Assembly (NCBI GenBank): GCA_017504485.1
Contig: JAFVRC010000028.1
Span: forward strand, 1 to 49,592
Origin: Alistipes sp.
GTDB taxonomy: Bacteria > Bacteroidota > Bacteroidia > Bacteroidales > Rikenellaceae
Reading direction: 5' to 3'
DNA: 49,592 nucleotides
The stretch's first letter is position 1, and each line of letters opens with the position of its first letter. A program made the translations under genes and the position numbers. The notes below the pieces were generated by a model. It had not been told where the DNA came from and ran no database searches. It worked only from the letters and a program-made list of their open reading frames with translations. Below are positions 19,008 to 37,897 of this stretch, in pieces.

Positions 19008-19841
19008 CTACTCCTTGAAGATTGTGTTCAGCACATAGGCCAAGCGGTATGCCGCTACCAATATCGAGCGGTCGGCCAGGTCGTGAACGGCCTCCTGCTG
19101 CTCCTTGGTCAGATGTGCGATGTCTGTACCCTCCGGCAGGATTGCATAAGCCTCGTGGCCGTGCTTGATAAAGACCTTCGCCCAGCCCTCAAGGCCCTTT
19201 TCGAGGTTCTTATGCTCGAGGCCCGTCTGCCACTTCTTGGCCTCCTTTGGCGAGACCTTGTCGATCATCTCGTGGTACTTCTTGACGGTTATACCCTTGC
19301 GCTTGTAGCCCGGCGAGCCATCCCAGAAGCTGTGGAAGTTGGCAAACTTACCATTGCGCTTAAGGTTGTACTTCGAGCTCAGCGGATAGATATGCTCCGG
19401 GAAGCCGCAGTGCGATGGGCAGTGCATATCCGCAACGTAGTGAACCATATTGATAAGTCGCTGACGCACTACCGAGTCAGGCAGGTTCTTGTAGTTGCCA
19501 TTGCCCAACTCTTTGTAGGCATTGACAAGGTGGCCCATAGCACGGCCCTTGACATTGTAACCCTCGGCCCAGCTCAACTTGCGGCCATTGTCGGTCGTGC
19601 GAATCGAGTGGCCATTGTTGATAGCCTCAAACTCCTTGATACCACGCCAGCGATCCATCCACATTGCGTAATAAGAGAGGGTGTGCTTGAGATAGTAACG
19701 GCACTTCTCTTTTGCCTCGGGCGTAAGGTGCTGCTCGGCAATATATGCCGCGCTGTGGTGCCCCACACCGCCCCACGCCGCCGCACTCTGCACCGAGCAA
19801 AGCGCAACGATCGTCAAGATTGACAGTTGAATTTTTTTCAT
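19008..19841 (-). CDS. S1/P1 zinc nuclease, canonical
   Basis: 278 residues with a signal peptide ending QSAAA before WGGVGH, so the mature N-terminal Trp and first His are in place. Other zinc ligands are present: Asp in YYAMWMDRW, His in NNGHSIR, HYVADMHCPSH (His, Asp, His) and FHSFWDGS (His and Asp). The family cleaves single-stranded DNA and RNA and removes 3' phosphates outside the cytoplasm, feeding nucleotide and phosphate scavenging. The frame is open to 19979, but the ATG at 19841 gives the signal peptide and fits the promoter at 19871-19901. A degenerate paralogue follows in the same operon. Confidence 0.88.
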   Translation of the reverse strand: MKKIQLSILTIVALCSVQSAAAWGGVGHHSAAYIAEQHLTPEAKEKCRYYLKHTLSYYAMWMDRWRGIKEFEAINNGHSIRTTDNGRKLSWAEGYNVKGRAMGHLVNAYKELGNGNYKNLPDSVVRQRLINMVHYVADMHCPSHCGFPEHIYPLSSKYNLKRNGKFANFHSFWDGSPGYKRKGITVKKYHEMIDKVSPKEAKKWQTGLEHKNLEKGLEGWAKVFIKHGHEAYAILPEGTDIAHLTKEQQEAVHDLADRSILVAAYRLAYVLNTIFKE

Positions 19842-20029: not shown

Positions 20030-21934
20030 CTACTTCACCTCCTCGAACTCCACATCCTCGGGCTGTGCCTGCGCACCGCCATCGTTAGGCTGTGCTCCGC
20101 CCTGCGGGCCCTGCTGTGCGCCCTGCGCGGCCTGCTGCGCCTGATAAATCTCCTGCGAGGCAGACTGCCATGCGGTATTCAGCTCGGCGATAGCGGCATC
20201 TATGGCCGTCAAATCCTGATTCTTGTGAGCCTCCTTGAGCTTGGCCAAAGCACCCTCGATGGCCGACTTCTTATCGGCAGGAATCTTGTCGCCATACTCC
20301 TTGAGTTGCTTCTCGGTGGCGAAGATGTTCGAGTCGGCAGCGTTAATCTTCTCGATGCGCTCCTTCTCGAGCTTATCCTTCTCCTCGTTGGCCTTGGCCT
20401 CGTCGCGCATACGCTGTATCTCCTCGTCGGTCAGGCCACTCGAAGCCTCGATGCGAATCTTCTGCTCCTTGCCCGTGCCCTTATCCTTGGCCGATACGTT
20501 CAGAATACCATTGGCATCGATGTCGAAGGTAACCTCGATCTGCGGCACACCACGCGGTGCGGCAGGGATACCGTCGAGGTGGAAGCGACCGATGCTCTTG
20601 TTGTCCTTGGCGAGCGGACGCTCTCCCTGGCATACGTTAATCTCTACGGAAGGCTGGTTGTCGGCAGCCGTCGAGAAGACCTCGCTCTTGCGAGTAGGGA
20701 TTGTGGTGTTGGCCTCGATGAGCTTCGTGAAGACACCGCCCAACGTCTCGATACCGAGCGACAGCGGCGTAACATCCAACAGAAGCACATCCTTAACCTC
20801 GCCCGTGAGCACACCGCCCTGAATCGAGGCACCGATAGCCACCACCTCGTCAGGGTTTACGCCCTTGTTCGGAGCCTTGCCGAAGAACTCCTCGACAATC
20901 TTCTGAATGGCCGGAATACGGGTCGAACCACCCACCAGGATTACCTCGTCGATATCCGAAGCCGAGAGACCTGCGTCGCGCAGAGCGATGCGGCACGGTT
21001 CGATAGTCTTACGGATAAGGTGATCGGCCAGCTGCTCGAACTTGGCACGCGTCAAGGTCATCACGAGGTGCTGCGGGATGCCGTTGATAGGCATAATATA
21101 AGGAAGATTAATCTCCGTGGACTGCGAAGCCGAAAGCTCAATCTTGGCCTTCTCGGCAGCCTCCTTCAGACGCTGCAAAGCCATTGGGTCCTGACGCAAA
21201 TCCACGCCGTGCTCGGCCTTGAAGGCCTCGGCCATATAGTCGATCAACACGTGGTCGAAGTCGTCACCTCCGAGGTGCGTATCGCCGTTGGTCGATTTAA
21301 CCTCGAATACGCCATCGCCAAGCTCCAGAATCGAGATATCGAAGGTACCGCCACCGAGGTCGTAAACGGCAATCTTCATATCCTTATTCTTCTTGTCCAT
21401 ACCGTAAGCAAGTGCGGCGGCCGTAGGCTCGTTGATGATACGGCGCACCTTGAGGCCTGCAATCTCGCCCGCCTCCTTGGTAGCCTGACGCTGCGAGTCG
21501 GAGAAGTATGCCGGCACGGTGATGACAGCCTCCGTAACCTCCTGACCGAGGTAATCCTCGGCCGTCTTCTTCATCTTCTGAAGGATGATGGCCGAAATCT
21601 CCTGCGGCGTATATTGACGGTTGTCGATATCCACACGCGGCGTGTTGTTGGCACCCTTGACAATCGAGTACGGCGCACGCTGAATGTCGCCCAGCACCTT
21701 GTCGTACTGCTCGCCCATAAAACGCTTAATCGAGAATACGGTGCGCTTCGGGTTGGTAATAGCCTGACGCTTGGCAGGGTCACCCACCTTGCGCTCGCCA
21801 CCATCGGTGAATGCCACAATCGAAGGGGTTGTGCGGTGGCCCTCCGAGTTAGGGATTACGACGGGCTCCGAGCCCTCCATTACTGCTACACACGAGTTGG
21901 TAGTTCCCAAGTCAATTCCAATAATCTTTCCCAT
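20030..21934 (-). CDS. dnaK: Chaperone DnaK (Hsp70)
   Basis: 634 residues. The ATPase domain begins [20 protein letters not shown], continues with [23 protein letters not shown] and [13 protein letters not shown], then the linker and [18 protein letters not shown] of the substrate-binding domain. The C-terminal lid ends in a Gln/Gly/Ala-rich tail and EDVEFEEVK, normal for the family. It works with DnaJ and GrpE, neither of which is adjacent. No CIRCE element is seen. Upstream is a variant promoter and four ATGGCA boxes, see separate entries. Confidence 0.98.
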
Positions 21935-22017
21935 AGTTGTAAGTCTTTTATTTGTTTATTGTTTTGTTGTTTCCGTTCTGTTTTCGGCTTTGCCACTTTG
22001 TAGAGCAAACCCCTTGC

Positions 22018-22047
22018 CAAAGCGATTTTTCGCATATTTTCTGCCAA
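22018..22047 (-). promoter_or_regulatory. Promoter candidate for dnaK
   Basis: Minus strand: TTG (22045-22047, within TTTTG), 19 bp, TCGCTTTG (22018-22025), one base off TAnnTTTG. It leaves a leader of about 75 bases, A-rich near the start codon. Confidence 0.5.
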
Positions 22048-22050
22048 AAT

Positions 22051-22110
22051 ATGGCATTTCGGCCCGACGTTGTATGACAAAATGGCATAGAATGGCACTC
22101 AATGGCATAA
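22051..22110 (-). promoter_or_regulatory. Four TGCCAT boxes upstream of the dnaK promoter
   Basis: ATGGCA (TGCCAT on the dnaK strand) occurs at 22051, 22082, 22092 and 22102. The last three sit in AATGGCAN3 units repeated at exactly 10 bp, and the first is 31 bp away. All are just upstream of the -33 element. The helical phasing suggests binding sites for a regulator; this is inference. Confidence 0.45.
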
Positions 22111-22144
22111 ATCGCAAAAAGTCAGAGGCGGTTGAGGGAATTTT

Positions 22145-22235
22145 ATGCCAAACAAAAAAGCGAGTCCGCAACATACTTGAGCGTATGTGAGGAACTCGCT
22201 TATTGCAGATTGGCGCAAAATTCACCAATCAGAAT
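22145..22235 (-). repeat. Structured intergenic element, copy 1
   Basis: Core hairpin CATAC-TTGAGC-GTATG (22172-22187) inside an outer stem AAGCGAGT/ACTCGCTT (22158-22165 with 22194-22201). A second hairpin follows, GATTGG...CCAATC (22208-22213 with 22225-22230). It ends in AATCAGAATGATTTTT, abutting the stop of the SGNH gene on the minus strand. Related to copies near 34095 and 49503. Confidence 0.6.
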
Positions 22236-35076: not shown

Positions 35077-35343
35077 GTGGTGCTTGGACACCGTGTCCAA
35101 AAAAGCCACTCTTGGACACATGTGTCCAGAACCAAAACCGATAGACAGTCGAACATAGCGGCTGACGTTGTTGTGAGGGTGGTGCTTGGACACCGTGTCC
35201 AAAATACCCACTCTTGGACACATGTGTCCAAAACCAAAACCGATAGGCGGTCGAACATAGCGTCTGACGCTGTTGTGGGGGTGGTGCTTGGACACGGTGT
35301 CCAAAATAGTCACTCTTGGACACATGTGTCCAGCACCAAAACA
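35077..35343 (-). repeat. Left array: three 102-bp palindrome-rich repeat units
   Basis: TTGGACACSGTGTCCAA palindromes start at 35084, 35186 and 35288; TTGGACACATGTGTCCA(A/G) palindromes start at 35112, 35214 and 35316. Both series have an exact 102-bp period. The sequence between units is also conserved and contains CAAAACCGATAG, GTCGAACATAGCG and, in the inner copy, AGCGTCTGACGCT. The array is oriented opposite to the right array at 36811-36975, so the two form inverted arrays around the ATPase gene. It lies in the gap between plsC and the ATPase gene; no convincing coding sequence is present between 34920 and 35574. Confidence 0.93.
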
Positions 35344-35418
35344 CGGACTGAAAAAAAAAGTAAAATTTTTAGCAAATCGTTTTATCGTCATACGGCTCTG
35401 CGTGTTACGCAATCCAAA

Positions 35419-35484
35419 AAGTTCAACAAATATCACTCGCTGAACTTCGGGACTTGACAACGCCTAATCGACATATTATATTTG
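35419..35484 (+). promoter_or_regulatory. Promoter and possible operator of the AAA ATPase gene
   Basis: TTG (35454-35456), 20 bp, TATATTTG (35477-35484) is a strong Bacteroidetes promoter. Just upstream is an inverted repeat, AAGTTCA (35419-35425) and TGAACTT (35441-35447), placed where a regulator could act. Confidence 0.65.
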
Positions 35485-35574
35485 CAGCCGTAAGCTTACT
35501 CGTACCAAACCCTATCGAGGCCTTGCGGCGGCAGTGCGCTACTGCGAGGCTACAAACCTTAACAACACTATTTT

Positions 35575-36804
35575 ATGCTTTCAGAAACGTGCAATCCGCT
35601 CGCCGAGGCACAGGCCGCTATAAGCGAGCAGAACAAGCGTAGAGCAGACTCTCTGCGCGACGTTCATCAAATGAACAACGATACTACTTGCCCCAACGAC
35701 TGCGCCAAGTGTGGGGAGTGGCGTACATGCCGCCTTACGCCCTCGCGCGGAGCGGCCTACTTGGAGTCGGTGCGCCGCGAAGCGTCGGGCATAGTCGAGG
35801 GGCTGTTGGGCGACTCGGAGCAGCGCGAGCAGAACTCGCTTGCCTGCGAGCTGCGTCTGCATCAGTCGCTCGGAGGCGTCACGGGCACGGCGTTGCTCAA
35901 CAGCGAGGTGGCGGCTATGGAGACACTCCTCGACCCTATACTTCCGCGATGCGGCATAGTGTCGCTCGTAGGCTCGTCGGATAGTGGCAAATCGACGCTG
36001 CTGCGAGGCTTGGCAATAGCCGTCGTATCGGGTGCTTCGCACTACCTCGGCTTCGCCCTGCGGCCGCGCTACAACCGCGCCATATACCTCTCTACCGAGG
36101 ATGACGAGCGTGCCATAGCGTCGCTGCTCACACGTCAGAACGAGGAGTTACGACTCCCCTCGACCACGCTCTCGAATCTCTACTTTATGTTCGACAGCGA
36201 GCAGGTCGTCGAGCGACTCGACAAGGCTCTCGCCTCGGCGGCCGTGGACCTGGTTGTTATCGACGCCTTTGCCGACCTCTACTCGGGCCCGCTCAACGAG
36301 AATAATCGCGTGCGCTGCTTCTTGCAGCAGTTCCACCAGGTGGCCATACGCCACAATACGCTTATCATCTTCCTGCACCACACGGGCAAGCGTACCGAAG
36401 CACTCGCCCCATCGAAGCATAATGCCATAGGCTCGCAGGGCTTCGAGGCCAAGATGCGACTGATGATAGAGCTGCGTAAAGACCCCGAAATGAAGCACTT
36501 GCGCCACTTGTGCATCGTCAAGGGCAACTACCTCCCTGCGGAGTTCAAGCACGAGAGTTTCGAGCTGCGCTTCACGCCTCACCTGAACTTCGAGGCTACG
36601 GGCCGCCGCATACCTTTCGACGATTTGTGCGAGAGCTTCGAGCCCCAATCTTCGGACAGGGCCAAAGCCGACCGCGAGACGTACGAGCGCATCGTAGCCC
36701 TTAAAGACGAGGGACTTTCGATACGCGAGATAGCCTCGGCCCTCGGCTTCAAGAGCCACACGAGCGTTCTCCGCCGCCTTAAAACCGAAGAGCTGGCCGA
36801 GTAG
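35575..36804 (+). CDS. RecA/RepA-like AAA ATPase with Cys cluster and C-terminal HTH
   Basis: 409 residues. Near residue 38 is CPNDCAKCGEWRTC, a possible zinc site. The RecA/RepA-like (AAA_25) ATPase core follows: Walker A LVGSSDSGKSTLLRG, AIYLSTEDDERAIASLL, Walker B DLVVIDAFADLY, and LIIFLHHTGKR with the sensor-like His. GSQGFEAKMRLMIELRK is typical of plasmid/phage RepA-like helicases. The last 50 residues form a helix-turn-helix (LKDEGLSIREIASALGFKSHTSVLRRLK). No primase, transposase or integrase is adjacent. The gene ends 6 bases before the right repeat array, and an inverted array lies 230 bases before it. The ATG at 35575 fits the promoter; 35671 is an alternative. A replication or DNA-organising role is inferred; the real function is unknown. 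Confidence 0.75.
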   Translation: MLSETCNPLAEAQAAISEQNKRRADSLRDVHQMNNDTTCPNDCAKCGEWRTCRLTPSRGAAYLESVRREASGIVEGLLGDSEQREQNSLACELRLHQSLGGVTGTALLNSEVAAMETLLDPILPRCGIVSLVGSSDSGKSTLLRGLAIAVVSGASHYLGFALRPRYNRAIYLSTEDDERAIASLLTRQNEELRLPSTTLSNLYFMFDSEQVVERLDKALASAAVDLVVIDAFADLYSGPLNENNRVRCFLQQFHQVAIRHNTLIIFLHHTGKRTEALAPSKHNAIGSQGFEAKMRLMIELRKDPEMKHLRHLCIVKGNYLPAEFKHESFELRFTPHLNFEATGRRIPFDDLCESFEPQSSDRAKADRETYERIVALKDEGLSIREIASALGFKSHTSVLRRLKTEELAE

Positions 36805-36810
36805 TTGAAA

Positions 36811-36975
36811 TTTTGGTTTTGGACACATGTGTCCAAGAGTGACTTTTTTGGACACCGTGTCCAAGCACCACCCCTACAACAGCGTCAGACGCTATATTCG
36901 ACTACGTATCGGTTTTGGTTTTGGACACATGTGTCCAAGAGTGACTTTTTTGGACACCGTGTCCAAGCACCACCC
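36811..36975 (+). repeat. Right array: two 102-bp palindrome-rich repeat units
   Basis: TTGGACACATGTGTCCAA (perfect 18-bp palindrome) starts at 36819 and 36921; TTGGACACCGTGTCCAA starts at 36848 and 36950. The period is 102 bp. The link between units contains AGCGTCAGACGCT (a third small palindrome), TATTCGAC and TATCGGTTTTGG. It reads as the reverse complement of the left array. It ends about 30 bases before the promoter of the next operon. Confidence 0.93.
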
Positions 36976-37004
36976 TCGCAGCCCCGCACTTCGCAAAAAA
37001 AATT

Positions 37005-37063: not shown

Positions 37064-37897
37064 ATGAAACGACTTTTGATTATCGCAATCGCCTTTGCGG
37101 TGGCCGGCAACAACCACACAGCAAAGGCGTGGGCAAACCTCGCCCACGGCACGACGGCATACATTGCCGAGCAGCACCTTACCCCCGAGGCCAAGGAGAA
37201 GTGCCACTACTATCTGCATCACTCGTTGGCCTACTACGCCTCGTGGATGGATGCGTGGCGCCAGGCGGAAGCCTTCCGCAAGGTGAACAACAACCACAGC
37301 GGCCGCGCTATGGACGACGGCGTGAACTACAACATGAAGAGCGGCACCATCCCTGGCCGTGTGATGGGCCACCTGATAAATGCCCTTGCGGAGCTGGGCG
37401 ACGGCAAGTACAAGGAGCTGCCCGACTCGGTTGTGCGTCAGCGACTTATCAACATGGCGCACTACGTTGGCGACATGCACTGTCCGTGCCACGTAGGCTT
37501 CTCGAAGGAGGCCTTCCCGCAGTACGCCTACACGCACATCACGAAGAAGGGCAAGAAGCTCTCGTTCCACGGCTATTGGGATGGCTCGTTGCAGCATCAG
37601 GGGCGCGGCAAGTGGTACTACGAGCGTCTCGCGGCCGAAATCGACAGAATATCGCCCGAGCAGGCAGCCGCCTGGCAGAGCGGCACGCTCGAGGAGTGGG
37701 GTCGCGACATCGTGAAGCTCGGCCACCGCGCACGCCAAATAACCCCCGAGGGTACGGACGTGGCGAAGATGAGCAAGGAGCAGAAGGCCGCCTCGCGACA
37801 GCTCACCAACGACGCTATCGCCATGGGTGCCTACCGTATGGCCTACATTCTCAACACCATCTTCTCGGACAAGAACATCAAAACCTATAAAGAGTAA
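37064..37897 (+). CDS. S1/P1 zinc nuclease, canonical (second locus)
   Basis: 277 residues, homologous to the gene at 19008-19841. The signal peptide ends NNHTAKA before WANLAH (Trp and His ligands). The other zinc ligands are there: YYASWMDAW, NNNHSGRA, HYVGDMHCPCH and FHGYWDGS. It should cut single-stranded nucleic acid outside the cytoplasm. The frame is open upstream to 36827, but that would run through the right repeat array and the promoter; the ATG at 37064 is right. It heads an operon of a degenerate paralogue, a histidine phosphatase and three membrane proteins. Confidence 0.88.
   Translation: MKRLLIIAIAFAVAGNNHTAKAWANLAHGTTAYIAEQHLTPEAKEKCHYYLHHSLAYYASWMDAWRQAEAFRKVNNNHSGRAMDDGVNYNMKSGTIPGRVMGHLINALAELGDGKYKELPDSVVRQRLINMAHYVGDMHCPCHVGFSKEAFPQYAYTHITKKGKKLSFHGYWDGSLQHQGRGKWYYERLAAEIDRISPEQAAAWQSGTLEEWGRDIVKLGHRARQITPEGTDVAKMSKEQKAASRQLTNDAIAMGAYRMAYILNTIFSDKNIKTYKE

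Follow-up and report, generated by a model that had tools for sequence, protein, structure and literature searches.

Hairpin arrays around an AAA ATPase gene of Alistipes as predicted cognate sites of a Bacteroidota replication-type module

The RSF1010/IncQ replication module is a plasmid-borne RepA-RepB'-RepC system with a RecA-like hexameric helicase and a primase, and uses iterons and ssi hairpins. In REP/RAYT systems, extragenic palindromes are tied to the gene that recognises them, RAYT being a Y1 transposase. The pRN1 plasmid of Sulfolobus encodes one prim/pol-SF3 helicase-winged-helix protein, and its origin has been described as a stem-loop directly 3' of the rep gene, of which the structure is conserved but the sequence is not (PMC4234260). 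Primase-helicase-WH proteins occur on mobile elements (PMC5862659). For the ATPase family considered here, no published description was found in open-licence PubMed Central.

The window analysed is the whole stretch of 49,592 nucleotides of an Alistipes sp. contig, the genome of which (G000) is available as an assembly of 1.92 Mb in 48 contigs with a completeness of 82%. The anatomy of the locus, the protein family, the co-variation, the insertions and the remnants described below were determined by computation. An ATPase gene, F0 (35575..36804, + strand), fills the interval between two inverted arrays of hairpin units. The left array (35077..35342, + strand) comprises three units with a period of 102 bp (hairpins at 35084-35129, 35186-35231 and 35288-35333; 2.6 copies and 92% matches at period 102 in TRF), the third of which is cut and ends after about 62 bp. 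The right array (36811..36980, - strand; hairpins at 36819-36864 and 36921-36966) has two units, inverted with respect to the left ones, which contain identical 63-bp copies (n = 2) spaced 102 bp. The arms, separated by 1469 bp, are 92% complementary across 170 bp. The sequence GGACACATGTGTCC, with up to two mismatches, has five matches in the window as compared to 0.13 expected, and none of 100 shuffles reached five. TRF and self-comparison confirmed what an earlier note, made from the letters alone, had described, namely three left and two right units in opposite orientation with a 102-bp period; the ATPase stop 6 bp before the right array was likewise verified.

The same note had listed an 18-bp and a 17-bp palindrome in each unit. 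Both are present, not as separate elements but as the arms of a single 46-nt hairpin, which in folding of two window units (the first hairpin of each array; z = -4.9 and -5.4) closes an 11-nt loop with an inner helix of 8 bp, followed by an outer one of 7 or 8 bp. A small AGCGTCNGACGCT palindrome, thought to be frequent, is intact in two of the five window units, and two of the five are cut before AGCGTCNGACGCT. Conservation of the whole unit holds for the hairpin with short flanks: across 12 units (five in the window and seven on contig C34 of the same genome), about 53 bp are nearly invariant, but the remainder is more variable. The spacer is optional among these 12 array units, contig C34 also holding 70/71-bp units that lack it.

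Compared with RSF1010/IncQ, the F0 loci show a RecA-like motor, in relatives a primase-like partner, and repeats plus inverted hairpins as candidate cis sites, but no separate RepC-like gene was seen and the loci are not on a plasmid; in the window, F0 occupies the inter-array interval in place of a repA-repB'-repC set. The site-binding domain seems to be fused to the helicase in F0, unlike in RSF1010/IncQ. As with REP/RAYT, extragenic palindromes are linked to one gene; however, the gene between the arrays codes for an AAA_25 ATPase instead of a Y1 transposase, and the stems are hypervariable. The F0 loci resemble pRN1-type replicons in joining helicase and DNA-binding domains in one protein (PMC4234260), and the window also has a stem-loop directly 3' of F0. 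They differ from pRN1 in the AAA_25 ATPase-HTH architecture, in the separate primase-like gene of relatives, and in their location on contigs with chromosomal genes. By analogy, pRN1 may be regarded as a close functional precedent for F0 and its palindrome. The window arrays also recall the BrickBuilt MITE of Porphyromonas gingivalis, an inverted-repeat intergenic element with tandem repeats inside and many copies per genome, and the inverted arrays at both the window and C34 provide terminal inverted repeats as in a MITE; BrickBuilt, however, is built of 23-nt spacerless repeats, and its abstract mentions no helicase relative (PMC4596501).

The product of F0, a protein of 409 aa, matches the RecA-like AAA_25 family (PF13481) with an E value of 6.3e-22 (78.6 bits, cut-off 27); its C-terminus shows a weak match, under the cut-off, to HTH_38 (E 6e-4), with the recognition helix at about residues 394-405, and no primase domain was found in it by Pfam search. 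The ORF is intact. An alignment of 39 F0 sequences, including that of the window, has 28 invariant columns, Walker A residues among these. Among solved structures, the F0 profile matched 8vd6, annotated "CAP REPEAT" (profile positions 293-326, E 1.6e-7), and XRCC3 (E 0.002-0.003). Upstream of F0, a promoter-like TTGACAA-N16-TATATTTG pattern (35454..35484, + strand) is common to relatives; of 21 loci, the window counted, 14 have a pattern of this kind near the start of F0. The first 60 residues of the window protein (35575-35770) form an N-terminal extension with a CPNDCAKCGEWRTC cluster, which is possibly a small zinc-binding part and has no counterpart in 20 aligned genus relatives.

The window neighbours tested are a ParE/GyrB-like gene, an acyltransferase and an S1/P1 nuclease. 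No integrase, excisionase or relaxase was seen between the window arrays or among these three and seven tested neighbours of Alistipes loci, so that the combination of integrase and relaxase expected of an integrative mobilizable element is missing among the window genes tested. Six distant F0 loci (L130, L134, L137, L151, L159 and L171), in contrast, have a tyrosine integrase upstream of F0 and in this respect resemble Bacteroidetes integrative mobilizable elements such as NBU1 and Tn4555 (PMC5704250); in L134, moreover, F0 stands in a row between a small HTH gene and an F1 match. The view that the block matches no element type thus applies to the window but not to the family. Upstream genes tested in L120, L122, L126, L127 and L153 were not integrases, that of L120 being without any match. 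The S1/P1 nuclease belongs to a family with five matches in G000, among other places at 19008-19826 and 37064-37897 of the window and on contig C11; other genus genomes contain up to seven, and several matches have an in-frame stop.

A second block of the palindrome units, located on contig C34 at 21354-22154, has three units on one side of a spacer of about 260 bp and four, inverted, on the other, but no ATPase gene; F0 is single-copy in G000. An exclusive tie of the arrays to the ATPase gene is thereby refuted. The genes flanking this block, which from sequence reading we take to be purE and guaB, are 1215 bp apart in G000 as compared to about 563-639 bp in five relatives (G057, G066, G131, G024 and G044), namely those among 29 relatives' guaB loci in which purE lay within the flank. 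Since the gap is shorter and the palindrome absent in all five, the C34 array block looks like a lineage-specific gain, which agrees with the mobile-element idea of the earlier note. An exact 16-mer of the palindrome was found in one of 180 genus genomes and one of 268 family genomes, G000 only. Arrays and ATPase therefore do not always pair, as the array occurs without the gene at C34 and F0 relatives occur without the array sequence; most F0 relatives nevertheless have some palindrome near the F0 stop. In G043 (L065, 395-3134), F0 lies directly upstream of a guaB-like gene, a neighbour also of the ATPase-free C34 block. At the end of contig C34 (L005, 9891-10123), a 97-bp tandem repeat with 97% matches follows the guaB-like gene and reaches the contig end.

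The ATPase, called an orphan in the earlier note, is so only in the window. Of 180 genus genomes, 23 have an F0 match, which is strong in 21 (E 2e-103 or better, G000 included); the others are a fragment in G040 and a weak match in G034. The records are Alistipes sp. or Rikenellaceae MAGs, those of Alistipes naming ruminant hosts, and the window F0 is 50-57% identical to its genus relatives. A second gene, F1, adjoins F0 in 15 of 20 fetched genus loci. Zn_ribbon_16 and DUF6371 were found in the five F1s scanned, and a signature "VVEsxKTA ... FPDxG" is presumably Toprim-like; searches of F1 against solved structures gave nothing significant. Four of the five loci without F1 reach a contig edge near F0. 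The window F0 is adjoined by neither F1 nor a PrimPol gene, and no DUF6371 or F1 gene was found in the 82% complete assembly of G000; L062 likewise has F0 without F1.

At 12 genus loci, F0 and F1 are separated by an imperfect palindrome of 36-61 bp, which recurs in inverted orientation and with 84-100% identity about 280-420 bp further on, within the linker of F1 and in frame. The loop of the genus hairpins is ATAGGG or nearly so, while the stems differ strongly among most species (L051 and L052 share one) and consist of copies of short motifs, in many cases two to an arm, an arrangement which recalls the pentamers of the SV40 origin. Hairpins of the ATAGGG type were found by a loop-plus-stem scan at 16 of 20 loci, as compared to none in 216 kb in one shuffling round. 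All 15 of 15 stem pairs show double changes (20 hairpins), which describe pairing rather than test it, because the hairpins had been chosen for being palindromic. Paralogous elements within one genome carry different stems (G031, G042 and G123). The window hairpin did not match in the ATAGGG loop-plus-stem scan, nor did G000 match covariance model R1; despite its four GGACAC copies, the window hairpin stands outside the ATAGGG class because its loop differs. The two are linked by a remnant in G087 (L281), which joins TTGGACAC stems with a ACATAGGG loop. Within F1, L052 (5610-5763) has an in-frame 78-bp tandem duplication in which the hairpin is duplicated, and L063 (5694-5851) an in-frame tandem duplication with 90-bp spacing that adjoins the hairpin.

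Beyond the genus, a scan of a species-genome collection with an F0 alignment and two short peptide patterns, and hence not exhaustive, yielded 71 F0 loci, all from Bacteroidota as titled in the records; taxa other than Alistipes include Dysgonomonas, Muricauda, Mucilaginibacter, Sphingobacterium and Polaribacter. Viral contigs contributed four further loci, giving 75; the paired palindrome pattern was absent from viral contigs. F1 matches occur at 42 of the 75 loci, and a VirE/BT4734-like gene of PrimPol type adjoins F0 in L145, L157 and L172. A primase-like neighbour in many relatives agrees with the suggestion that the arrays could be iterons or ends of a replicon or mobile element. A plasmid or phage replicon as such was considered and rejected, as the F0 of one relative gave only matches of about 30% identity in plasmid and phage collections.

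A palindrome with a score of at least 12 is present near the F0 stop at 55 of 75 loci, in some up to 90 bp off, and usually differs from that of the window, which scores 10, under the cut-off of 12, and was entered by hand in the 75-locus count but not in the co-variation test described below. With its similarity through ATPase and HTH and its palindrome near the stop, the window F0 is a member of the Bacteroidota family. In equal stretches of 165 nt, palindromes were found near the stop in 54 of 72 loci, as compared to 3 of 75 inside F0, 4 of 66 and 6 of 55 in control stretches downstream, and 4 of 67 upstream; the palindrome near the stop beats all 100 shuffles in 41 of 72 loci only. At six loci of Flavobacteriales, the palindrome is a shorter one with TGTCCC. 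The scan gave no clear palindrome near the stop at 14 of 75 loci, one of which, L162, shows one across the F0 stop in self-comparison. Terminators were rejected as an explanation because no T-tract follows the palindromes: the 9 nt after them contain on average 2.53 T (2.68 expected), and at least 6 T in 1 of 55.

For analysis of co-variation, motif similarity was based on 5-mers repeated at least three times around and after the F0 stop and was compared with identity in sliding 12-residue segments of F0, corrected for ATPase-core identity, at 67 loci including the window. The peak falls on residues 394-405 of the window F0 (SHTSVLRRLKTE), expected to be the HTH recognition helix, with a partial r of 0.36, which was reached in none of 2000 label permutations, a procedure that leaves relatedness partly in. 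It remains at 0.34-0.37 with DNA after the stop only, with 6-mers, or when overlapping loci are removed. The best F0 segment starting before residue 380 gives 0.22-0.26, and values for control stretches of DNA are 0.02-0.07. Among genus loci alone (n = 23), segment 390-401 ranks highest at 0.28, with the helix segment at 0.24 and values of at most 0.18 elsewhere; outside the genus (n = 43), segment 392-403 does so at 0.42, with at most 0.31 elsewhere. The co-variation accounts for part of the variance only. F1 was rejected as the reader of the palindrome, as the highest value among its segments is 0.27, outside the Zn ribbon, compared with 0.47 for the F0 helix at the same 35 loci.

In classes picked by eye, several members of which are near-identical, all 12 TTTCC loci have a helix of the form [KR][GS].[VI][ST]K, all 8 GTCCC loci have KS...R, and both ATTCA loci have SQPTVSR. 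In reverse, 12 of 15 loci with the first helix contain TTTCC at least four times, and the count for the second helix and GTCCC is 8 of 11. Because both larger classes include distantly related F0s, the match of motif and helix does not reflect shared descent only. The earlier suggestion that the arrays are sites for the ATPase's own HTH gains from this pattern, since the motif co-varies with the recognition helix above other parts of F0, and other DNA around the gene does not; the hairpins are most likely bound by F0 itself, as predicted from these comparisons. Hypervariable intergenic hairpins of Bacteroidota are now tied to a specific protein family, and recognition helix and motif together suggest a readable protein-DNA code. 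That the hairpins are ordinary intergenic palindromes, terminators or neutral REP-like repeats flanking the gene by chance would suit their position 3' of a stop codon and the existence of other intergenic repeats in these genomes, but is hardly credible given this co-variation.

We lean towards a compact mobile replicon in which F0 acts as sequence-specific initiator-helicase and the hairpin units are its cognate sites. An initiator-helicase with an origin-like site is favoured because F0 is helicase-like with a site-reading domain, the palindrome lies beside the gene, and a primase-type partner occurs. The co-variation fits equally well with palindromes acting as operators, by which F0 would control its own operon through a loop or roadblock between the palindrome that follows F0 and its inverted counterpart in F1, the ATPase serving, e.g., DNA repair or defence; the 12 loci with a palindrome between F0 and F1 and an inverted copy in the F1 linker do look like paired operators. 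We nevertheless rate this explanation as unlikely: most sites lie downstream of F0 and not near the shared promoter, which is upstream, a second inverted copy was seen in just three non-genus loci (L138, L153 and L160), and the tested F0 neighbours are often of primase types.

Under the favoured initiator-helicase reading, we infer binding, origin activity, mode of movement and the working state of the window unit as follows. As a ring or filament, F0 would bind the four short-motif copies per palindrome (GGACAC in the window) through its C-terminal HTHs, the RecA-like motor would open the palindrome, and a primase-like partner (F1, or VirE/PrimPol in relatives) would then prime at the opened site. 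In ruminant-gut Alistipes, F0-palindrome-F1 units are located between housekeeping genes and, on decay, leave scattered pairs of inverted hairpins. The window would represent an F1-less descendant variant, the sites of which were amplified into 102-bp arrays on both sides; its unit is perhaps still capable of binding, and perhaps uses a partner missing from the assembly. If the replicon reading is true, the chromosomes of gut Bacteroidota hold integrated mini-replicons and their remnants, which the generic names AAA_25 and DUF6371 hide. As judged from sequence comparison, the kind of system, a replication module of mobile elements, would be a known one, and its new aspects would be a hypervariable and co-evolving site and chromosomal dispersal.

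Insertion was apparent at argS, where 30 loci were examined. In 19 of these, dus lies beside argS without an element, at a distance of 89-190 bp in 17 of them, while in G118, G042 and G095 the gap contains F0 with F1 downstream (in G095, dus is beyond F1 in the other orientation). G099 has a decayed remnant with two tandem copies of hairpin plus F1 start, and seven loci had neither dus nor an element in the fetched flank. The gap filled by intact units is thus a short one in the majority of relatives examined, which speaks for a mobile element. The empty argS-dus and purE-guaB sites are too diverged for placing the element ends. At the window locus, no empty-site comparison was possible because the acyltransferase was absent beside the six nearest S1/P1 nuclease homologues examined.

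A covariance model built from 20 hairpins matched in 32 of 180 genus genomes, with up to 26 matches per genome, many of which face each other in pairs or form tandem arrays, with hundreds of bases in between. As the training hairpins came from F0 genomes, only matches away from F0 were counted in these: among the matches listed, at least 15 of 20 F0 genomes have such hairpins, as compared to any match in 12 of 159 others (p = 7e-11), a further point against ordinary palindromes. In 20 regions picked from the list, F1 fragments are present in 17 and a C-terminal piece of F0 in eight. A piece of about 0.5 kb on G031:C4, which spans both hairpins, aligns to the full element at C6 with 81.5% identity over 482 columns; some stretches reach 98-100%, the middle has diverged and the flanks are unrelated.

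Such a copy could also arise if F0 (and F1) moved a new element without integrase, whose ends for recombination or transposition were the hairpins; the arrays would then be multiplied ends and C34 a non-autonomous copy. Inverted hairpin pairs indeed bracket genes or empty spacer, and two other hairpin cassettes, 94% identical over 466 bp, occur at two loci. However, the ends of the copies differ and extend past the hairpins, no constant terminus or target duplication could be defined, partial deletion of full copies would give a similar picture, no nuclease or transposase for moving the hairpin unit was identified, and six distant relatives have tyrosine integrases; we regard recombination ends as improbable. 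Related genes with co-changing hairpins across the phylum suggest that a family of DNA units capable of self-replication or movement has been overlooked. Speculatively, and with low confidence, the F0 unit without integrase or transposase might even constitute a new class of Bacteroidota mobile DNA, in which the helicase and its primase-like partner would copy or move hairpin DNA, a lineage-private palindrome would be matched by the helix in a code resembling plasmid incompatibility, and MITE-like hairpin arrays, those of the window included, would be left behind.

Known defence systems were rejected as an assignment for F0 and F1, as the defence-system search gave only weak ATPase matches. 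Some distant F0 copies carry or adjoin defence-like genes. An AbiLi/AriA-like ATPase in L138 and PDC-M31A/B in L156, both defence-like, lie between the palindrome and F1, and in L127 a type IIG restriction enzyme directly follows F0 and its palindrome.
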